Positions 1,775-30,760 of a DNA stretch of 31,720 nt are shown here, piece after piece. The position numbers were made by a program, and so were the translations under genes. The notes beneath the pieces are model-generated. The model searched no databases, was not told where the DNA came from, and saw only the letters and a program-made list of their open reading frames with translations. This stretch comes from a virus. Numbering within the stretch: the stretch's first letter is position 1; each line of letters begins with the position of its first letter. The DNA lies in the IMG/VR virus record IMGVR_UViG_3300034104_004629, positions 1 to 31,720 of that record. The stretch is one strand, 5' to 3'.

Positions 1775-2023
1775 ATGAAGTTTGATGAACAAGTTGAATC
1801 TATCTTAAGTGAATTGCGTGCACAAACTGTGCATGTTAATGCTGGACCAACTATAGATGGAATTCAACCTGATGGTGGTAATGAATTTTATGGTAACATA
1901 AATAAAATGGGACCAAATAAATCTTTAGGAAAAATTGCCAGTGGAATGTTTTATCAGAAAAAACCAAAAACATCTAAGAAAAAAAGAACTAAAAATGTTA
2001 TCTTTAGTATACCATTAAATTAA
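1775..2023 (+). CDS. hypothetical small basic-tailed protein
   Basis: 82 residues. The N-terminus (MKFDEQVESILSELR) has the helix plus L-S-E signature shared with several genes here. The middle is Gly/Asn/Pro-rich (PTIDGIQPDGGNEFYGN). The C-terminal third is basic (YQKKPKTSKKKRTKN). A possible gp21 site followed by a basic tail is reminiscent of T4 internal proteins, but the protein is short and matches no family I recognise. It is followed 8 nt later by the DUF1501 gene, so the two are probably co-transcribed from the promoter at 1755. Confidence 0.65.
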   Translation: MKFDEQVESILSELRAQTVHVNAGPTIDGIQPDGGNEFYGNINKMGPNKSLGKIASGMFYQKKPKTSKKKRTKNVIFSIPLN

Positions 2024-2031
2024 ATATCCAT

Positions 2032-3390
2032 ATGAAAGACTGCGGTAATCATCCCACTTATAATTCCAGAAGAGAATTCCTTACACAATTTGGTTGGGGT
2101 ACAGCAGGGCTTTCATTGTATTCATTGTTGGGATTAAATCCAAACACATTAGAAGCATCAATTCTTGATCCTAAGAAACCACATTTCCCTGTTAAAGCTA
2201 AATCAGTTATTCAGTTGTTTGCTGGTGGAGCACCTTCACACGTTGATACTTTCGATTATAAACCAGAATTACAAAAACGTAATGGAGAAAAATTTGGAAG
2301 AGACGAACTTTTAGCATCACCTTTTGAATTTAAACGATCAGGTAAATCGGGAATACATATATCCGAAGTATGGAGTAGATTAGCTAATCATGCAGATGAT
2401 ATGGCTATTATTAATTCTATGTTTACGGAAATACCAGATCATGGTATTGCTGCAAAAATAATGAATACGGGAAGTGCACAATTACCTAGACCTAGTTTGG
2501 GTAGTTGGTTGGTGTATGGATTGGGAAGTTTAAACCAAAATATGCCAGCATTTATTAGTTTAAATGGTGGTGCGGAATGGCGACAATCGGCTTTTCTCCC
2601 TGGGATGTACCAAGGGTGTAATGTACAATATAAATCCACAATGCTTCCACGTGATGTAATGGCTAACATTAGAAGTGAATTTTCTTCTATGGATCGTCAA
2701 CGCAGACAAATCGATCTTGCTAGAGGATTAAATAATATACATGCAGAAGCTTTACAAAAAGATGCACAATTAGAAGCACGTATCGAAGCATTTGAGACAG
2801 CATATAAAATGCAAATGGAAGCTACTGATGCTTTTGATATTTCTAAAGAACCAGAAAAAATTAAAGATTTATACGGAACCACAGAAGAAGGTTCTAAAAT
2901 GATTGTTGCTCGTCGTCTTGTAGAACGAGGTGTAAGATTTGTACAAGTTAACGTAGGTGGATGGGATCATCACGAAAACATTAAAACTACATTAGCTAAT
3001 ACTGCTAACAGATACGATCAAGCGTTTTCTGGGTTATTAACCGATTTAAAACAAAAAGGTTTATTAGATTCTACTTTGGTTATCTGGGGTGGTGAATTTG
3101 GTAGAACAGTTACTGCTGGAGGTTCCGCTGGTGCTCCAGGTCGAGACCATAACGGAAAAGCTTTTTCTGTTTGGATGGCAGGTGCAAACGTCAAAGGTGG
3201 ACAACGCTACGGTGAAACCGATGAACTAGGTGGTTCAGCAGAAAAAGACAAGGTTCATGTACACGATTTACATGCCACAATTCTACGTTTAATGGGTTTT
3301 GATCATACCAAATTAACTTATAATTATAATGGTAGAGAATTTAGATTGACAGACAACTTTGGTAATATAATTAAAGAAATCATTGCATAA
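2032..3390 (+). CDS. DUF1501 family protein with twin-arginine (Tat) signal
   Basis: 452 residues, essentially full length for DUF1501, a family related to the alkaline phosphatase/sulfatase fold. Residues 12-18 (NSRREFL) are a Tat motif followed by a mildly hydrophobic stretch (TAGLSLYSLLGL), so export of the folded protein is predicted. Family hallmarks run in order: IQLFAGGAPSHVDTFDYKP near residue 65, PRPSLGSWLVYGLG near 155, GGWDHH near 310, WGGEFGRT near 352, GRDHN near 370, and HVHDLHATILRLMGFDH near 412. The His/Asp/Glu-rich motifs look intact, so it is probably active, but the family's substrates are poorly known. DUF1501 is abundant in Planctomycetes and Verrucomicrobia and unexpected among phage genes. 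The AT-rich composition matches its neighbours, so the gene does not look freshly acquired. It could modify the host surface or periplasm; that is inference. Confidence 0.88.
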   Translation: MKDCGNHPTYNSRREFLTQFGWGTAGLSLYSLLGLNPNTLEASILDPKKPHFPVKAKSVIQLFAGGAPSHVDTFDYKPELQKRNGEKFGRDELLASPFEFKRSGKSGIHISEVWSRLANHADDMAIINSMFTEIPDHGIAAKIMNTGSAQLPRPSLGSWLVYGLGSLNQNMPAFISLNGGAEWRQSAFLPGMYQGCNVQYKSTMLPRDVMANIRSEFSSMDRQRRQIDLARGLNNIHAEALQKDAQLEARIEAFETAYKMQMEATDAFDISKEPEKIKDLYGTTEEGSKMIVARRLVERGVRFVQVNVGGWDHHENIKTTLANTANRYDQAFSGLLTDLKQKGLLDSTLVIWGGEFGRTVTAGGSAGAPGRDHNGKAFSVWMAGANVKGGQRYGETDELGGSAEKDKVHVHDLHATILRLMGFDHTKLTYNYNGREFRLTDNFGNIIKEIIA

Positions 3391-4822: not shown

Positions 4823-7606
4823 ATGAAAAACGAGAATAGTGGTATCTATTGGTTGAATAAAGATTCAAGAACCTTCTTGGAAAGAGGGTATTTATTAAAA
4901 GATGAAACACCAGAAGAAAGAATAGATCAAATTGCTAAAAAGGCTAGTGAATATTTTTCTAATTCAGAAGAGTTTTATAATAAGTTTACCAATTATATAC
5001 ATAAAGGTTATTATTCTTTAAGCACTCCAATATGGAGTAATTTTGCTAGAGACCGTGGATTGCCTATATCATGTTTTGGAAGCTATATTCCAGATACTAT
5101 GGAAGGGATTCTGGAAAAGATATCAGAAGTAGGTATGATGACTAAGGGTGGTGGTGGTACATCTGGTTATTTTGGTGATATACGTCCTAGAGGATCTGTT
5201 ATTAATTCTGGAGGAGTTAGCACAGGTTCAGTTCATTTCATGGAAATATATGATACTTTGATGCATGTTGTATCACAAGGTAATGTTAGAAGAGGTTCTT
5301 TTGCAGCATACTTACCAATAGATCATCAAGATATTGAGGAATTTTTAAAGATTAAATCCGAAGGAAATGCAATTCAAGATTTGTCTATTGGTGTTTGTGT
5401 ATCAGATGAATGGATGAGTTCCATGAAAGATGGTGATAAAGACAAACGTAAAATTTGGGCTGAAGTTATTAAGAAACGATTTGAAAGTGGTTATCCATAT
5501 ATTTTATATACAGATAATGCAAATAAAAATGCCCCACAAGTATATAAAGATAAAGGAATGAAGATTTTACATTCAAATTTGTGTGTTACTGGTGATCAAC
5601 GAGTGGTAAGTTCCTTGGGACTTTTAACTGCAAAAGAATTGTTTGAAATTGGTTCAGAAATCGAATTATTCGATAATACTAAAATAGTTAAATCTTCACC
5701 AATGAAATTAATAGAAAAAGATGCTGATGTATATAAAATTACATTAGAAAATGGTATGTCTCACACTGTTACGTCATATCATAAAATAGCAGTTAAAGAT
5801 AAAATTTCTCAAAAAAATGAATCCTTTGGAGAAGTCTTAATTAAGAATGTCGAATGTAAAGATCTTAAAATCGGTGATTCTGTAGCAATACAAACACAAA
5901 AAGGATTATTCGGAAAAACTAACAAACCAAAAGAAGCATTTCTTCTGGGGTTATATCAAGCAGATGGAACGCAACATAAAGATTATATAATGATTGATTT
6001 ATGGAAAAATGATTTTGATCTTGTAGAAGAAGTTCAAAATTATCATGATTACATTTGTGATACTTACAATACTCAATTATCAAACAATAATAGAAAATAT
6101 TTAAATCCTAAATTTGTTGATTGTATTGTTCAAGAAGGTTCTGATGCAAAAAAAAGATTAACTTCTAAAGCTCTTAAAAAAGCATTAAATTTTGAAAAGG
6201 GATATGTTCCTGATTGGATTTGGGAATCTAATGAAGAAACTCAATGGCAATATATTAGAGGATTATATTATGCAGATGGTACAGTATTTAAATCAAGTTC
6301 TCATGGAGAACCAATTCAAATATCATTATCATCAATAAACAAAGATTTTTTATCTGAGGTACAATTAATTTTAGCAAATTTAGGAATGCAATCTTCTATT
6401 AGAATTCTTAGAAATGCTGGAGAAAATTTTTTACCTGATGGTAAAGGTGGAAGTAAATATTACGAAACAAAAACTTGTTATAGACTTATTATTGGTAATA
6501 AAAATGATGCGTTAGTCTTTAATAAAAAGACTTATTTTTTGGATAGAAAAAACATTTGTCTAGAAGATAGAGAATATCGTGATAATACTAAAAAATTCTA
6601 TAAAATTCAGTCTATTGAATATGTTGGGAAAGAAGATGTATATTGTGTAACAGTTGATTCGGAAGAACATCATTGGATTTGTAATGGATTTATTACACAC
6701 AATTGTTCTGAAATCATGCTTCCAAATAAAAAAGATGAATCATTTGTTTGTAATTTGGCTAGTATGAATCTAGAAAAATATGATGAATGGAAAGATACAG
6801 ATGCGGTATTCACCATGATATGCTTCTTAGATGCGGTAATGGAAGAATTTATTGTTAAAACTGAAAACGATAAATACATGACAGCACCAAGAAATTTTGC
6901 TGTTAATCATAGAGCATTAGGATTAGGTGGATTAGGATGGCATTCTTTACTTCAAAAGAAAAATATTGCTTTCGAAAGTATGGAAGCAAAGTATTTAAAT
7001 GTTGAAGTATGGAAACATATACGTGAACAAGCAGATTTAGCTACTAAACATTTAGCAGAACTATTTGGAGAACCACCAGTTCTTAAAGGTTATGGACGTA
7101 GAAACACCACTACTTTAGCTATTGCCCCTACAACTAGTAGCTCATTTATATTAGGACAAGTTTCACCTAGCATAGAACCTCTTAATAGTAATTATTTTGT
7201 TAAAGGATTGGCTAAAGGTAAATTCACTTATAAAAATCCTTATTTAAAAGAATTACTAGCTTCTAAAGGAAAAGATACTGATGAAGTATGGAAAGATATT
7301 CTAACTCATGGTGGTAGTGTATTTCATCTAGATTTCTTATCAGAAGAAGAAAAAAATGTATTTAAAACTTTTGGTGAAATGAGTCAAAAAGAAATTATTA
7401 TTCAAGCTGCAAATCGCCAAAAATATATTGACCAAGGACAAAGTTTAAACCTTATGATTCCTTCAAATGCCAAACCAAAAGAAGTAAATGAATTAATGTG
7501 TTTTGCATGGGAAATGGGTATCAAGTCATTATACTATCAGCGTTCTTCTAATCCTGCACAAGAATTAGCTAGAAGTATTATGAGTTGTAAATCTTGTGAA
7601 GCATAA
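4823..7606 (+). CDS. nrdA: class I ribonucleotide reductase large subunit, with intein
   Basis: The 927-residue precursor contains a 374-residue intein (residues 254-627); the spliced enzyme would be 553 residues. It reduces ribonucleoside diphosphates together with NrdB. By comparison with E. coli, Cys84 (PISC) and Cys643 (VCNLASMNL) match the redox pair C225/C462. Cys628, the first residue after the intein, matches radical Cys439, with E630 as E441. Tyr904-Tyr905 (SLYYQ) match Y730/Y731, and Cys922/Cys925 are the C-terminal shuttle pair. The N-terminus lacks the roughly 100-residue ATP-cone, so overall dATP inhibition is probably absent. No Shine-Dalgarno precedes the ATG. All catalytic residues are present, so activity should depend only on splicing. 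Confidence 0.95.
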   Translation: MKNENSGIYWLNKDSRTFLERGYLLKDETPEERIDQIAKKASEYFSNSEEFYNKFTNYIHKGYYSLSTPIWSNFARDRGLPISCFGSYIPDTMEGILEKISEVGMMTKGGGGTSGYFGDIRPRGSVINSGGVSTGSVHFMEIYDTLMHVVSQGNVRRGSFAAYLPIDHQDIEEFLKIKSEGNAIQDLSIGVCVSDEWMSSMKDGDKDKRKIWAEVIKKRFESGYPYILYTDNANKNAPQVYKDKGMKILHSNLCVTGDQRVVSSLGLLTAKELFEIGSEIELFDNTKIVKSSPMKLIEKDADVYKITLENGMSHTVTSYHKIAVKDKISQKNESFGEVLIKNVECKDLKIGDSVAIQTQKGLFGKTNKPKEAFLLGLYQADGTQHKDYIMIDLWKNDFDLVEEVQNYHDYICDTYNTQLSNNNRKYLNPKFVDCIVQEGSDAKKRLTSKALKKALNFEKGYVPDWIWESNEETQWQYIRGLYYADGTVFKSSSHGEPIQISLSSINKDFLSEVQLILANLGMQSSIRILRNAGENFLPDGKGGSKYYETKTCYRLIIGNKNDALVFNKKTYFLDRKNICLEDREYRDNTKKFYKIQSIEYVGKEDVYCVTVDSEEHHWICNGFITHNCSEIMLPNKKDESFVCNLASMNLEKYDEWKDTDAVFTMICFLDAVMEEFIVKTENDKYMTAPRNFAVNHRALGLGGLGWHSLLQKKNIAFESMEAKYLNVEVWKHIREQADLATKHLAELFGEPPVLKGYGRRNTTTLAIAPTTSSSFILGQVSPSIEPLNSNYFVKGLAKGKFTYKNPYLKELLASKGKDTDEVWKDILTHGGSVFHLDFLSEEEKNVFKTFGEMSQKEIIIQAANRQKYIDQGQSLNLMIPSNAKPKEVNELMCFAWEMGIKSLYYQRSSNPAQELARSIMSCKSCEA
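5582..6703 (+). mobile_element. in-frame intein with LAGLIDADG homing endonuclease
   Basis: Starts with Cys (CVTGDQRVVSS, block A). Block B follows as GMSHTVTSYHKIAV with the T-x-x-H pattern. It ends with block F (VYCVTVDSEEHHW) and block G (NGFITHN), immediately before Cys+1 of the host protein. Two dodecapeptide motifs, LLGLYQADG (precursor residues 374-382) and IRGLYYADG (478-486), mark a LAGLIDADG endonuclease; both acidic residues (D381, D485) are present, so homing activity is plausible. All splicing residues (Cys1, block B His, HN, Cys+1) are intact. The insertion lies between NL and the catalytic cysteine of NrdA, so unspliced protein must be inactive. It has no stop or frameshift and looks functional. 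Confidence 0.95.
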
Positions 7607-12213: not shown

Positions 12214-14349
12214 ATGAGCAATTATACAATAACAGGAATTGGCTATTTTCAAGATAGTTCAATAAACTATGGAACATTAAATTACGCAGAATTCACAGAT
12301 TCTGCTATAAATATGGGTACAATACTTATGTCTGCATATTTTGCAGATACATCAACAAACAGTGGAGTTATTAGCGGAGATTCTTTCTTTGCTAATAGTG
12401 CTGTTAATGATGCTACTGGAGTTGTTGCGGGTAATGCAATTTTTGCTGATACCACAACAAATAACGGAACAGTCAACGGTGATGCAGCAATTGCTGCAAC
12501 TGCTGATAATACCAACGGAACAGTAATTGGTAATGTATCTATATATAACCCAAATTCAAACAACGGACCTTATAGTGATGCATATTATGTAGATGGTGTA
12601 ATATCTCCAAGTCCAGTAGCTACTCCACAAGAAGCATTAGATAATGCAGGTGTGTGGTATGTTTATGATGGAAGTGGATATGCTTCATTTGCTGACACTG
12701 CTGGTGTACCCGTAGATGAAAGTGGTACTTGGTACGTCTATAGTGCTGGATCTAAGACCGCTTATGACACTGCTGGTGTACCAGTAGATGAAAGTGGTAC
12801 TTGGTATGTCTACAGTGGTGGATCTAAGACAGCTTATGACACTGCTGGAGTACCAGTAGATGAAAGTGGTACTTGGTATGTCTACAGTGGTGGATCTAAG
12901 ACAGCTTATGACACTGCTGGAGTACCAGTAGATGAAAGTGGTACTTGGTATGTCTACAGTGGTGGATCTAAGACAGCTTATGACACTGCTGGAGTACCAG
13001 TAGATGAAAGTGGTACTTGGTATGTCTACAGTGGTGGATCTAAGACAGCTTATGACACTGCTGGAGTACCAGTATATGAAAGTGATACTTGGTACGTCTA
13101 TAATGGTGGATCTAAAACTAATGTAAACGGACAAGTAGTGTTTGATGGCACCACTAACTGGTATCGTTACAACTCTGGTAATGGAACAGCAGAAGACTTA
13201 ACAGGACAAATCATATTTGATGGCACCACTAACTGGTATCGTTACAACTCTGGTAATGGAACAGCAGAAGATGTAACAGGTCAAGCATTAATGGATTACC
13301 ATGGAATATGGTATCGTTACAATTCAGGTAATGGAACACCAGAAGGTGTAACAGATCAAATATCATATGATGGTATTTCTTCCAATTGGTATCGTTACAA
13401 CTCTGGTAATGAAACACCAGAGAACTTAACAGGTCAAATAGTGTTTGATAGTACTTCTTCGAATTGGTATCGTTACAACTCTGGTAATGGAACACCAGAG
13501 AACTTAACAGGACAAGAATTACTCGATGGTAGCGGCAATTGGTATCGTTACAATTCAGGTGTTGGAATACCAGAAGACTTAACAGGAACAGTCTACTACG
13601 ATAATAACAATATGAATTGGTATCGTTATCTCTATGGTGATCCAACAATACAAGTTATAACAGGACTAATCTTGTATGATGAAATTTCTAGCTGGTATCG
13701 TTACAATTCAGGTGTTTCTTCACGAGAAGATGTAACAGGTCAAGTAGTGTTTGATGGCACCAATTGGACTCGTTATAACTCAGGTAATCCTGTGGCAGAA
13801 AGTCTAACAAATACAATTTACTACGATAGTTCTTCTATGAAATGGTATCGTTACAACTCAGGTGATGGAACACCAGAAGATGTAACAGGACAAATATTGT
13901 GGGTGGGCACCAACTGGTATCGTTACAACTCAGGTAATTCTGCGGCAGAAAATGTAGACGGACAAATCATATTTGATGGCACCACTAACTGGTACAGTTA
14001 TCCCTTTGTTACTGGTATAGCAGAAGATGCAAATGGTAGCGTTTTCTATGAAAATGGTGCTTGGTATCAACGTCAACAAGGAAATGGAACCCCTGTAAAT
14101 GTAACTTATGCAATAGTGCATGATGGAACTAACTGGGTTATTCTTAATTCAGATGGTACTACTACAGTAGTTTATCCAGCGTTTGATACATATTATTCAA
14201 CCGATCAAACATTAACAAGTGGTTCTTCTGTAATATTAGATCCAAGTAATAATAGTGCTCCTGCTCCTAATATGAGTGGTACCGCAACAATTAATGGAAC
14301 ATCTGATACATCATATACTACAGATGATTATGGTGTAATTACATTCTAA
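12214..14349 (+). CDS. large repeat-rich adhesin or fibre protein
   Basis: 711 residues, no signal or membrane segment. Three repeat zones are visible. Residues 1-120 have turns of about 20 residues (FTDSAINMGTI, FADTSTNSGVISG, FADTTTNNGTVNG), probably a beta-helix. Residues 161-304 are six 24-residue units with TWYVYSGGSKTAYD. Residues 306 to about 655 are about 14 diverged units of 23-26 residues built around NWYRYNSG. A short beta C-terminus follows (TYYSTDQTLTSGSSV). The aromatic W-Y-x-Y repeats could bind sugars, which is inference. It lacks the KRR module, so it probably attaches to another fibre, perhaps the product of 11552. A strong terminator follows at 14395. Confidence 0.8.
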   Translation: MSNYTITGIGYFQDSSINYGTLNYAEFTDSAINMGTILMSAYFADTSTNSGVISGDSFFANSAVNDATGVVAGNAIFADTTTNNGTVNGDAAIAATADNTNGTVIGNVSIYNPNSNNGPYSDAYYVDGVISPSPVATPQEALDNAGVWYVYDGSGYASFADTAGVPVDESGTWYVYSAGSKTAYDTAGVPVDESGTWYVYSGGSKTAYDTAGVPVDESGTWYVYSGGSKTAYDTAGVPVDESGTWYVYSGGSKTAYDTAGVPVDESGTWYVYSGGSKTAYDTAGVPVYESDTWYVYNGGSKTNVNGQVVFDGTTNWYRYNSGNGTAEDLTGQIIFDGTTNWYRYNSGNGTAEDVTGQALMDYHGIWYRYNSGNGTPEGVTDQISYDGISSNWYRYNSGNETPENLTGQIVFDSTSSNWYRYNSGNGTPENLTGQELLDGSGNWYRYNSGVGIPEDLTGTVYYDNNNMNWYRYLYGDPTIQVITGLILYDEISSWYRYNSGVSSREDVTGQVVFDGTNWTRYNSGNPVAESLTNTIYYDSSSMKWYRYNSGDGTPEDVTGQILWVGTNWYRYNSGNSAAENVDGQIIFDGTTNWYSYPFVTGIAEDANGSVFYENGAWYQRQQGNGTPVNVTYAIVHDGTNWVILNSDGTTTVVYPAFDTYYSTDQTLTSGSSVILDPSNNSAPAPNMSGTATINGTSDTSYTTDDYGVITF
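12694..13125 (+). repeat. six tandem 72-bp repeats
   Basis: Units start at 12694, 12766, 12838, 12910, 12982 and 13054 (24 codons each). The units at 12838, 12910 and 12982 read as identical DNA, so the array expanded recently. The flanking units have diverged. Confidence 0.92.
13129..14177 (+). repeat. about 14 diverged NWYRYNSG repeats
   Basis: Units of 23-26 codons, each with a G-Q-I-x-F-D-G start, W-Y-R-Y-N-S-G core and a T-P/A-E-D/N-L/V-T end. Length and sequence vary, so this array is older than the 72-bp array next to it. The last two or three units are degenerate. Confidence 0.85.
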
Positions 14350-14832: not shown

Positions 14833-15078
14833 ATGACAGAAGTTAGTCCGTATAAAGTATATACAAAAATGTTGATATATGCATTTATTACAATGTTAAT
14901 ATCATTTTTATCATTAATAGATAACATAAATGATGTTAGTACAGTGACTGGCTTTGAATGGATTAAAATGGTAGCTAAATCTATTATAGCAGCTTTAATA
15001 TCAGTTAAAGCTTATCTAGATAATTCTGGTAATTCTGATGAAATAAAAACAGAAGAAGGAGAAACAGATGCAAAATAG
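14833..15078 (+). CDS. small two-helix membrane protein, holin-like
   Basis: 81 residues. Two membrane helices are predicted at about 13-30 (LIYAFITMLISFLSL) and 44-60 (IKMVAKSIIAALISV), followed by KAYLDNSGNSDE and a charged acidic tail. Size, two helices and a charged C-terminus fit class II holins, and similar short proteins with the KAYLDNS end are common in phages. No lysozyme gene lies nearby, so the call rests on topology. The 3' end overlaps the PAS-protein gene by 11 nt, coupling their translation. Confidence 0.6.
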   Translation: MTEVSPYKVYTKMLIYAFITMLISFLSLIDNINDVSTVTGFEWIKMVAKSIIAALISVKAYLDNSGNSDEIKTEEGETDAK

Positions 15079-15628
15079 TATTGATTTCATCCAAGATAAT
15101 ATTCAAGTAGTATATTATGTTACAACTATTTTAGGTGTAATATATGGGTTCTATAAATATATGAAAAAAAATGTAGTTAAATCTGATGTATTTAATTTAT
15201 TTAAATTGATTACAGAAGTACCTTTAACTATTGTAGAGATAAAAGAAGGACAAAAAGAAATATTTCAAGAAATAAGATTGCAAAATAAATTCATAAATGC
15301 AATACTAGAAAATTTAGAATTAGCACAATTTCTTTGTGATGATGAAGGTAAATGTATAAAAGTTAATAGTAAATGGATATCTATTACAGGATTATCTGAA
15401 TCTGAAGCATTAGGTCATAACTGGTTATTATCTGTACATTACGAAGATCGTGAAAGAATTCAAACCAAATGGCATCATATGATACACGAAAATACACCAT
15501 TCGAAGAAGTATTTCGTTATCAACATCGTGTAACAAATGTAATAACTAAAGTTAAATGCACTGCTACAGATGTATTAGACGAGCACGGTAAACGAATTTT
15601 TATTATTGGTCTTTCTAGTGTGATATAA
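15068..15628 (+). CDS. membrane-anchored PAS-domain protein
   Basis: 186 residues. One membrane helix (about 14-31, VVYYVTTILGVIYGFYKY) is followed by KKNVVK, so the C-terminal part should be cytoplasmic. A helix (about 40-82) leads to a PAS domain (85-186): FLCDDEGKCIKVNSKWISITGLSESEALGHNWL is the usual N..W..I/T-G-L-S..E-A-L-G pattern, and the end (DVLDEHGKRIFIIGLSSV) looks like a PAC segment. No kinase, GGDEF or DNA-binding domain follows, so it ends as a bare sensor. PAS domains bind small ligands or sense redox, oxygen or light. Overlap with the holin-like gene suggests a joint role, perhaps timing of lysis or membrane-state sensing; this is inference. Confidence 0.8.
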   Translation: MQNSIDFIQDNIQVVYYVTTILGVIYGFYKYMKKNVVKSDVFNLFKLITEVPLTIVEIKEGQKEIFQEIRLQNKFINAILENLELAQFLCDDEGKCIKVNSKWISITGLSESEALGHNWLLSVHYEDRERIQTKWHHMIHENTPFEEVFRYQHRVTNVITKVKCTATDVLDEHGKRIFIIGLSSVI

Positions 15629-20659: not shown

Positions 20660-22237
20660 TTAGAAGTACACTGCTTGATTTCCAGGAGTAAATGCCTGAC
20701 CAAGATTCTTGAGAATGATTGTGTGATAATATAGTGCAGCTCCGAAAATATTATCCACCACGCCATATCTTGTCAAGAGACCTACGCGAGGAGCGAAGTC
20801 ATTTGGACCGATTGTACGTTGAATCATCACAGGAATGTATGGGCAATAAATGATACCAGAGTCATAGAACTCAGTACCTTTATATCCCAACAAGGCATAC
20901 TCAACACCAGCAGTTTGACCTGAGTAACCTAAGTCACCATAAACATTGCTGTTTTGTACTTCAGTGCGGGTATCACGATAAACTTGGAATCTACCACCAA
21001 GAGAACCAACTTTAGCTACGCCAGTTTGCTGGGTAGTTACGTTACCTTGAACGGTAACCCATTGGAATTCAGGAAGCATTTCGAAGATAGCGCAAACGCG
21101 AGGGGTTGCAACGATGAAGTTTGCAGGTCCACGACGGTTACGAATTGCTATACGGTTTGCTTCGATAATTACTCTCTGGTAGAAGTCACGATTACGTTCA
21201 ACCAACCAACGACCATCAGCAGATTGAGGAGACCAGATAGAATATCCTTTTCCAAAACCACCATTTAAGGAAGTTTGGATCATGCGGATAATCATTTCAC
21301 GGTCGATTTCAGCTTGGATCTCATATGCCATAGCATTTGTGATCTCAGCATCGATATCGATACCGTTCATATTCTTTAAGTCTTGCTCAAGCTCGACGGA
21401 CCATTTTGCACCTAATCTACGTGTACCAGCTTCAACAGCAGTTTTCTCGAAGGAGACTTCAACTGTTGGGATGTTTGCGTTGATTTCGAAATTCTTAAGA
21501 ATTTCGGCAACACCACGATCTTGGTTAGCAAATGCCCAATCAGAATTACCTGAGAGTGCATTGTTTTGAACACCAGTATAACGAGTGTCAAGATGTTGCC
21601 ATCCGAGTTCGTTATCACCTTGTGGTGTTTGTTGACCAGTGTAACTTACAGCTGTTTGTGTATGTGTACCAGGTGCAGCAACGAATTGACCACCTTTAAT
21701 GAATCCTTGAACTGGACCTTGTCCAACTCCATTCACATAAGCACTGAAAACAGGTGTTAAAGTGCTTGATGATGTGGATGCATCTTGATAATCACCACCA
21801 AGTGATTGATTGCTATACTTATATCGAAGTGCAAACGCAAGTCCTACAGGACCACTCATGGGTTGAACTCCAACGATTTCGTTAGTGATCAACTCAGGGA
21901 AGGTACGACGGATCATGGGAATCAAGATCTTAGGAAGACGAGCATCACCTTGTGCATAGAAGTCGTTATTAGCGGGGAATCTACCACCATTATCACCGTT
22001 GGTAGTTAATGGATTCGAACCATATCCGAATACGCCAGCTCCACCAGCTACATTAGCTTCACGCAAGCAATATGCTTCTTGGTTTTCCAAAAGCATTGCT
22101 GTGTTTAAACGAGTGTGTTCATCTTCAATTGCAGCTACGTTCTTGCTGGTATAATCGAGCACGGGTGCCCATTTTTCCAAAAGAACTCTAGCTCTATCTT
22201 GATCGATATACGATTGTGCGGGTTTGATTTGTTTCAT
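20660..22237 (-). CDS. 23: major capsid protein (T4 gp23-like)
   Basis: 525 residues, close to T4 gp23 (521). Recognisable parts include the N-terminal LLEKWAPVLDYTSKNVAAIED and the RLNTAMLLENQE stretch, then a long HK97-fold body with LFDSG/EYALLGYKGTEFYDSG-like segments and the C-terminal run of capsid strands. L58-R-E60 followed by Ala matches the L/I-x-E cleavage pattern of gp21, near the T4 cleavage after residue 65, so a propeptide of about 60 residues is predicted. Codon use looks more GC-rich and selected than its neighbours, as expected for the most abundant protein. It lies after gp22 and is closed by a strong terminator. Its leader of about 100 nt has two hairpins. Confidence 0.97.
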   Translation of the reverse strand: MKQIKPAQSYIDQDRARVLLEKWAPVLDYTSKNVAAIEDEHTRLNTAMLLENQEAYCLREANVAGGAGVFGYGSNPLTTNGDNGGRFPANNDFYAQGDARLPKILIPMIRRTFPELITNEIVGVQPMSGPVGLAFALRYKYSNQSLGGDYQDASTSSSTLTPVFSAYVNGVGQGPVQGFIKGGQFVAAPGTHTQTAVSYTGQQTPQGDNELGWQHLDTRYTGVQNNALSGNSDWAFANQDRGVAEILKNFEINANIPTVEVSFEKTAVEAGTRRLGAKWSVELEQDLKNMNGIDIDAEITNAMAYEIQAEIDREMIIRMIQTSLNGGFGKGYSIWSPQSADGRWLVERNRDFYQRVIIEANRIAIRNRRGPANFIVATPRVCAIFEMLPEFQWVTVQGNVTTQQTGVAKVGSLGGRFQVYRDTRTEVQNSNVYGDLGYSGQTAGVEYALLGYKGTEFYDSGIIYCPYIPVMIQRTIGPNDFAPRVGLLTRYGVVDNIFGAALYYHTIILKNLGQAFTPGNQAVYF

Positions 22238-28936: not shown

Positions 28937-30760
28937 TTATGTTGTAGATGATGTAGGTGTTTTAGGTGGTGGTGTAGTTCCCCCTGCTGGTGGTGGTGTT
29001 CCCCCACCTTCTGCTCCTGCTTCTTCTGGTGCAGCTTCTGGTGCTCCACCTTCTGGTACTGCTGGTCCACCTGTAAATGCTGGTGGTAATCCACCACCTC
29101 CACCTCCACCACCTCCTGCACCAACTTCTGGCGTTTCTCCACTAGCAGCTTGTGCAGCTACCATTTCTTTCCAATTAGGACCATTTGCTTCGATTTGAGC
29201 TAATTCCCAACGTAATTCTTTATCTTTACGTAGAAATTCGCGATTAGCTTTAATATCAATATCAGACCACCCAAGATATCTTTTCTGTGCAAATGTTGGT
29301 GATATAGATTCATTATTTGCTAAATTACTAAAATTATTAACTTTCAATTCTAATTTTTGACTTTCACGAAGTTCATAAAAGTTGGTTGGAACATTAAATT
29401 CTATTTGAATAGAATCTTCTTTCAATTCGAAATCTTTCCACAAACCTTTCATTTGTAGATGCGTAATAAAACCCGTCTTAATCCCAGAAGAAAACAACTG
29501 TTGTTGACGAATAATAAATCGTGCAAATTTCAATTCTTCACGCAACATATCTGCACCATCACGAAATGCGTCTTGGGGATCTAAACGTGTAGTTGGAACC
29601 TTTAATGACTGATAAAGCTTTTTAACAAAGTACATTAAATCTTCGAGTTCTCCTAAATTTCCTGCACCAGCTAATTGAGTTACACTAGTACCTTCAGAAC
29701 CAGCACGTTTAGCAAACCAGAAATTATCAAGAATACTTTGTGGATTAAACTTTTGTACTATTCCACCTTGATTTGGGTCATATGTTTTAGAACTCCAATA
29801 TTGTGTTACTAATTTACGTAAATATGCTTCAGCTTTAGGTGCTGGCATATTACCTACATCAACATTAAAAACTAGACGTTCAGGAGCACGGGCTAGACGA
29901 TATATAACAATACTATCTTCAATCATTGATAATTGACGATAAGCTCTTCTACAATTTTCTAAAAATGGAAGACGCATGGTTTTACTTTCATTCCATACAT
30001 CAGAGTTAATATAAGTAACTTGATTTTTATCCATTGGAATGAAATCCACACCAATTTGTTTTAATGGATTATTAGGATCAAATTTAGGTTTTCGATACAA
30101 ATAACCTTTAATTATAACATTTTGTACATTAGAAAATACTGGATCAATAAGTTCTGTAGGTACTTGCACAACACCAAGTATACCCTCTTCTGGATAATCT
30201 TTATGTATAATATGCTCCCAATAAATTTCACCCTCGACCATTAATTGTCTAAAATATCCCCATCCTTTATGTTCGAAATCAAAATGGCTTGTATATTTAG
30301 AAAATTCTTTTTGTAATGTTTCTGTTTGATAATTTGATAGTTGTATGTTTTTAAATTTCAATTCCATACAATTATTTGTACTGGAATTAATGTTAATAAC
30401 TTCATCACAAATTTCATCTAAAGCATTTGCAACTTCAGAAAATGCTGCCATCACTCTATAATCTCTTATTCTTGCTGCTTTATCCTTCTGGATATTAGCA
30501 TACATTATTTGACTATATTGTTTATCTGAGGTAATACTTCCTATCGAAGCATTATTATAGTCATAATTTTGTGATATAGAATGTCTAGATAAAACTTCAG
30601 CTCTCCTGATTCCTGTTTCTTCGAAATATTTGTATTTTGGATTTAATGTATCAGTTAATTTTGTTACATCAAATCCAGAATAAGGTAATTTTGATGATAT
30701 ATAACTCATCAATTCTCTACCAAATGTAGAAGATTTTCCATCATCGAAGTTAGAAGCCAT
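28937..30760 (-). CDS. 20: portal vertex protein (gp20-like)
   Basis: 607 residues, longer than T4 gp20 (524). Clear portal signatures are IEDSIVIYRLARAPERLVF (about 283-301), VDVGNMPAPKAEAYL and GTSVTQLAGAGNLGELEDLMYF (about 370-391), with KKLYQSLKVPTTRLDPQ and GADMLREELKFARFI. It forms the dodecameric ring through which DNA enters and leaves the head, and gp4 and neck proteins act there. The last 85 residues are a Gly/Pro/Ala/Thr-rich low-complexity tail (GGGGGGGGLPPAF, then PPPAGG and PPPKTPTSS), not found in T4 gp20. A promoter-like box lies 5 nt before the start, and the previous gene ends just before it. Confidence 0.95.
   Translation of the reverse strand: MASNFDDGKSSTFGRELMSYISSKLPYSGFDVTKLTDTLNPKYKYFEETGIRRAEVLSRHSISQNYDYNNASIGSITSDKQYSQIMYANIQKDKAARIRDYRVMAAFSEVANALDEICDEVININSSTNNCMELKFKNIQLSNYQTETLQKEFSKYTSHFDFEHKGWGYFRQLMVEGEIYWEHIIHKDYPEEGILGVVQVPTELIDPVFSNVQNVIIKGYLYRKPKFDPNNPLKQIGVDFIPMDKNQVTYINSDVWNESKTMRLPFLENCRRAYRQLSMIEDSIVIYRLARAPERLVFNVDVGNMPAPKAEAYLRKLVTQYWSSKTYDPNQGGIVQKFNPQSILDNFWFAKRAGSEGTSVTQLAGAGNLGELEDLMYFVKKLYQSLKVPTTRLDPQDAFRDGADMLREELKFARFIIRQQQLFSSGIKTGFITHLQMKGLWKDFELKEDSIQIEFNVPTNFYELRESQKLELKVNNFSNLANNESISPTFAQKRYLGWSDIDIKANREFLRKDKELRWELAQIEANGPNWKEMVAAQAASGETPEVGAGGGGGGGGGLPPAFTGGPAVPEGGAPEAAPEEAGAEGGGTPPPAGGTTPPPKTPTSSTT

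Follow-up and report, generated by a model that had tools for sequence, protein, structure and literature searches.

A DUF1501 gene with a Tat-type signal and Chthoniobacterales ancestry recurs in uncultivated phages

Introduction

Why does a T4-like phage carry a gene for a DUF1501 protein, where did this gene come from, and what might its product do during infection? The gene lies in an IMG/VR virus record, a linear contig of 31,720 bases that was analysed over its whole length and is referred to here as the window. To our knowledge, very few isolated phages infect Verrucomicrobia or Planctomycetes. In PVC bacteria, DUF1501/PSCyt modules count among the gene sets with the highest degree of amplification, yet they are uncharacterised. 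The DUF1501 module is preferentially found in compartmentalised PVC bacteria, and in 2015 DUF1501 was described as lacking any characterisation (PMC4452313, PMC4960237). Our literature search identified no biochemical characterisation of any DUF1501 protein, and the activity discussed below is therefore deduced from the fold.

Results

The DUF1501 gene and its phage context

A contig with both the gp23 capsid and the gp20 portal genes was regarded as T4-like. The window carries the two genes, encoding the major capsid protein gp23 (20,660–22,237, minus strand; PF07068, E = 2.2e-89) and the portal protein gp20 (28,937–30,760, minus strand; PF07230, E = 5.7e-101), along with genes for the prohead protease, head closure and the head-tail adaptor, and is a fragment of a T4-like phage. 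The DUF1501 gene (2,032–3,390, plus strand, ATG start) encodes a type I protein of 452 residues. A small ORF ends 8 bases upstream of it, and a 108-residue ORF separates it from nrdB-nrdA.

The original prediction of a full-length DUF1501 protein was confirmed. A Pfam search with E values up to 0.001 returned a single family, DUF1501 (PF07394, E = 4.8e-133, 444.5 bits against a cut-off of 27), over profile positions 1–390 of 390, and did not return PhoA (PF00245). A search of NCBIfam gave nothing beyond a weak LtaS-type match (E = 0.18). All motifs that had been named are present: SRREFL (residues 12–17), GGWDHH (309–314), GGEFGRT (353–359), GRDHN (370–374) and HVHDLHATIL (409–418). Type I phage genes are under strong purifying selection, with dN/dS values of 0.019–0.088 for pairs with dS < 1.3, and internal stops were absent from the type I copies in the viral contigs examined.

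Predicted fold and putative active site

An AlphaFold2 model of the protein was obtained with a pLDDT of 83.7 and a pTM of 0.83. Foldseek searches with this model gave sulfatases and LtaS as top matches and also matched alkaline phosphatases. In the VIA structure search, the best match (Z = 20.3, 250 residues, rmsd 3.3) was to NPP-type phosphodiesterases, and Z was at least 8 for 490 of the 1,000 chains aligned. The model and the fold searches thus support the alkaline phosphatase-like fold that had been foreseen for this protein. Among the structural matches, a single phage protein bears the name DUF1501: A0A6J5M742 from an uncultured Caudovirales phage, which is also the only one so annotated in BFVD. 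It has the same fold, but is known by annotation only and shares 15% identity in the structural alignment.

Residue conservation was then examined in an alignment of 262 DUF1501 sequences, 150 of them from phages. His137, Asp312, His314, Asp329, Glu355, Phe356, Arg358 and Arg371 are invariant in all 262, while Asp372 is kept in 257 and His373 in 261. Every one of the 150 phage copies, and the window protein as well, retains His137, Asp312, His314, Asp329, Glu355, Arg358, Arg371 and His373; Asp75 is lost in one phage sub-group. In the model, His137 (codon 2,440–2,442, plus strand) begins a helix (residues 137–146) that follows a strand (124–131), and would thus occupy the helix N-cap where the nucleophile of the superfamily normally sits. 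The putative metal ligands Asp312 and His314 (codons of Asp312-His-His314, 2,965–2,973, plus strand) follow the strand 303–307, and a further putative ligand, His373, lies in Arg371-Asp372-His373 (3,142–3,150, plus strand), as judged from column conservation in the 262 sequences. Glu355-Phe356-Gly357-Arg358 (3,094–3,105, plus strand) stands in place of the sulfatase SSDNG motif in a weak alignment with arylsulfatase A (E = 0.8). This conserved set of Asp, His and Glu residues is compatible with the two-metal site of the alkaline phosphatase superfamily.

The predicted overall fold is common to DUF1501, type I sulfatases, LtaS and NPP phosphodiesterases. In contrast to these enzymes, DUF1501 has neither a formylglycine motif nor a conserved Ser/Thr/Cys nucleophile, and Glu355-Phe356 is found where sulfatases have Asp-Asn. 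The motif C/S-x-P/A-x-R had no match in the window protein, whose sole cysteines are Cys4 and Cys196, and strict membership among the sulfatases was rejected on this basis. Across the 262 sequences there was no conserved Ser, Thr or Cys in the expected nucleophile region; Ser111, considered as a candidate, was dropped since position 111 is variable. The earlier suggestion that the protein acts on sulfated substrates was not borne out, given the missing motif and the missing nucleophile.

Origin from Chthoniobacterales

When 84,980 bacterial and archaeal species were scanned, the nearest relatives were found in Chthoniobacterales/Spartobacteria MAGs (60–64% identity, tblastn), followed by Opitutales (54–56%), Planctomycetes (46–48%) and then Acidobacteria and Bacteroidota. 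As the species scan depends on two short patterns, 213 Chthoniobacterales genomes were also searched directly. Copies at 63–67% were present in 11 of them, the best at 66–67% and none closer. These best bacterial relatives belong to freshwater Chthoniobacterales (Verrucomicrobiota); some of the MAGs are titled Akkermansia or Opitutus in NCBI, yet were found by the order-wide search. In a phylogenetic tree, 20 type I phage sequences formed one clade (100/100) that was sister to a Chthoniobacterales clade (100/100).

In the close bacterial relatives, DUF1501 is directly followed by a PSCyt1-DUF1549-DUF1553 gene. Four phage contigs (L011, L017, L018 and L022) retain this partner in the bacterial gene order, and the phage partner gene nests within Chthoniobacterales (SH-aLRT 95–96), from which we conclude that transfer proceeded from bacterium to phage. 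The presumed host origin of the gene from a PVC donor therefore holds. The bacterial and phage DUF1501 proteins, at 66–67% identity over their full length, also share the invariant residues and the RR motif. On the other hand, the phage copies form a clade of their own, lie among phage genes, carry a phage-type promoter element and are usually without the partner. Among 50 selected viral records, described below, DUF1553 was present in 8 and PSD1 was absent from 42, in contigs that are possibly incomplete; two of the 8 have a compact form of 587–605 residues.

As to the partner proteins themselves, those of L011 (11,358–14,339), L017 (11,361–14,330) and L022 (11,370–14,330) have 987–994 residues and a CxxCH haem motif, and are predicted to be c-type cytochromes encoded by phages. 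A compact DUF1549-DUF1553 gene without the cytochrome domain stands beside DUF1501 in L025 (7,012–8,769) and L159 (9,845–11,656).

In Verrucomicrobiota and Planctomycetota, type II DUF1501 occurs at about one copy per genome. In L267/L268, the type II gene heads an operon that also encodes a PPC-domain and a PSCyt protein. In a quick tree of type II, with forks left open, mainly freshwater phages formed one clade, and phages of the marine type formed another that joined Planctomycetes. The presence of two phage clades suggests several acquisitions.

A PVC host had also been proposed for the phage, and on the origin of the gene alone such a host is likely. A spacer or prophage link was not found: a spacer-type DNA search that compared 19.7 kb of the window with 210 Chthoniobacterales genomes gave only chance-level matches of 25–37 nt. 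The best of these, 37 nt long, lay outside any repeat array.

Distribution among viral contigs

Viral contigs were scanned with the window protein and then with the alignment, which yielded 24 loci. Type I relatives with 70–79% identity are held by 21 other IMG/VR contigs, the copy in L027 being cut by the contig end, while L023, L025 and L026 carry more distant relatives (41–42%). The contigs, up to 236 kb in length, are all metagenomic and possibly incomplete. Five of them (the window, L007, L008, L020 and L024) share the neighbourhood before nrdB-nrdA, and the type I gene also occurs in several other contexts. A second, divergent DUF1501 was found in 4 of 6 large phage contigs. One copy is visible in the window fragment; its relative L008 has a second DUF1501 elsewhere, and the window phage may therefore have one too. 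Type II genes turned up in 142 viral contigs or more, with identities of 62–74% for the freshwater type and 52–59% for the others.

Copy number was counted in 50 viral records chosen for this purpose, all of which contain DUF1501 by selection. Two or more copies were present in 35 records, three in 9 and four in 3, counts that are not independent because some records are near-duplicates. None of the 100 DUF1501 genes in these records has internal stops. Four genes lie in a row or close together in L132 (6,727–12,430), L148 (1,373–8,458) and L176 (3,643–9,061). A sulfotransferase-family gene (6,813–7,634 in L012) was noticed near tandem DUF1501 genes in the context C contigs.

The carriers are not confined to T4-like phages. 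A gp23 gene could be recognised in 10 of 44 records. Among those without gp23, L011 (190 kb) carries polynucleotide kinase, ligases, ribonucleotide reductase and tail proteins according to PHROGs, and L154 (163 kb) carries RIIA/RIIB, UvsX, DNA polymerase and virion proteins, identifying both as phages. The gene is therefore common to at least two to three groups of phages. An isolated acquisition was rejected in view of the 21 other contigs with type I and the at least 142 with type II. DUF1501 is not a rare single acquisition but a conserved, often multi-copy cargo, often in tandem, which numerous uncultivated phages of lakes and the sea carry.

We could not find a described phage isolate with this gene. 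Among 50,697 phage records, type I had no match and type II had one partial match, MT837425, which covers a quarter of the protein at 36% (E = 3e-4) and was discounted as too weak. No PHROGs family matched DUF1501. A literature search on phage DUF1501 returned nothing relevant, one phage paper having a weak match in a 61-residue protein. Taking into account this absence from PHROGs and from the phage records, together with the presence in at least 142 viral contigs, the family would serve as a metagenomic marker for phages of Verrucomicrobia and Planctomycetes.

Export signal and promoter-like element

The N-terminus of the window protein, MKDCGNHPTYNSRREFLTQFGWGTAGLSLYSLLGLNPNTLEAS (2,032–2,160, plus strand), reads as a twin-arginine (Tat-type) signal, with SRREFL followed by the hydrophobic stretch FGWGTAGLSLYSLLGL, as in Tat substrates. 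Counted by alignment column, the second Arg is present in all 150 phage copies, and the first position is Arg in 145 and Lys in 5. The Tat signal that had been noted in this protein is thus universal, as RR or KR, among the phage copies, which are predicted to be exported by this route.

The late promoter of T4 is TATAAATA. A similar TAAATA element (2,021–2,026, plus strand) lies 11 nt before the DUF1501 start codon. TAAATA occurs within positions −30 to −1 of 20 of the 38 window genes, mostly starting at −11, compared with 3.7% of random intervals. The arrangement TAAATA-N5-ATG, exactly 11 nt before the start, is seen at about 15 window genes including DUF1501 (for example 2,021–2,026, 1,764–1,769 and 483–488). 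Several DUF1501 genes of gp23-bearing contigs have the element at equal spacing, and there was little of it in L009–L011. The resemblance to the T4 late promoter and the −11 position make a late and nearly leaderless DUF1501 mRNA likely.

Possible roles of phage DUF1501

We favour an exported envelope hydrolase because of the predicted fold, the conserved putative site, the export signal, the gene arrays and the late-type promoter element; the missing canonical nucleophile and sulfatase motif and the loss of Asp75 in one sub-group weaken this account. A freshwater Chthoniobacterales DUF1501 gene, probably within a DUF1501-PSCyt operon, would have been acquired by phages infecting such bacteria and would then have spread among T4-like and other large phages. 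The cytochrome partner would since have disappeared from most carriers, as far as the possibly incomplete contigs show. The stripped-down phage versions suggest that DUF1501 is the part that matters by itself, and as small natural proteins they are suited to activity tests. Made from the late-type phage promoter and exported folded via the host Tat system, the protein may be a metal-dependent hydrolase, a member of the alkaline phosphatase superfamily that works in the periplasm or at the cell surface. Late in infection it would most likely modify the host envelope or capsule glycans, possibly for virion release or for the exclusion of competing phages. As a whole, this chain from a Chthoniobacterales donor to an altered envelope is a tentative account with a little less than an even chance of being right. 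A broader proposal can be entertained, though we would sooner doubt it than assert it: that DUF1501 is an exported system characteristic of Verrucomicrobia and Planctomycetes phages, whether it occurs singly, in arrays of two to four or together with a cytochrome-type partner, and that, taken several times from PVC hosts, it remodels the unusual PVC envelope during infection with the invariant His137 replacing the nucleophile.

Some cyanophages carry an exported alkaline phosphatase, a host-derived auxiliary metabolic gene product of the same superfamily, and the literature considers genes for exported phosphatases among the auxiliary genes of phages. By analogy, phage DUF1501 might free phosphate, sulfate or sugars from organic esters for phage synthesis. 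The alkaline phosphatase-like fold, the export signal and the occurrence in lake and marine phages agree with such scavenging. Against it, the promoter element suggests late-type rather than nutrient-regulated expression, pho-type neighbours were not seen in gene context A, and the active site is unlike that of PhoA. The window DUF1501 also differs from the cyanophage enzymes in its family, in having no phosphatase Pfam match, in its active-site residues and in its hosts. In freshwater Verrucomicrobia, PSCyt genes have been tentatively linked to saccharide use (PMC5615132), a further point in favour of scavenging, which we nevertheless consider unlikely, if deserving of serious weight.

The protein might instead join or displace the host DUF1501 in the PSCyt/DUF1553 module, shifting a redox function in the periplasm or a function of the envelope without acting as a hydrolase in its own right. 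Bacterial DUF1501 does belong to a PSCyt operon, host genomes hold dozens of copies, and the 42 records without PSD1 may rely on that of the host. Yet several phages bring their own partner gene, and up to four divergent copies per phage exceed what a single decoy would need, so that this role seems rather improbable to us. The stripped-down phage versions suggest that DUF1501 is the part that matters by itself, and as small natural proteins they are suited to activity tests.

Tandem diversified copies recall receptor or depolymerase repertoires, and a depolymerase-like enzyme on the virion was therefore considered; we give this little credence, as the universal RR/KR implies export, which a protein built into virions in the cytoplasm would not need, and the gene lies outside the structural block. 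That the gene is misassigned bacterial DNA or a neutral captured passenger can scarcely be believed: IMG/VR contigs are metagenomic and incomplete and bacterial source genes are very numerous, but gp23, portal and protease genes on the same contig, the same location ahead of nrdB-nrdA in five contigs, the phage-only clade, purifying selection and two further carriers that are phage genomes by PHROGs all oppose it, and contamination was rejected on the phage context and the phage-only clade.

Other features of the window

Three further genes of the window drew our attention. The large chain of ribonucleotide reductase (nrdA, 4,823–7,606) is split by an intein bearing a LAGLIDADG domain; its homologues in L007, L008 and L020 have 547–559 residues and are apparently intein-free. 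An ORF of 711 residues (12,214–14,349), in which the unit DTAGVPVDESGTWYVYSGGSKTAY is repeated, probably encodes a fibre-type protein. Finally, a PAS-domain protein with a hydrophobic N-terminus is encoded at 15,068–15,628.
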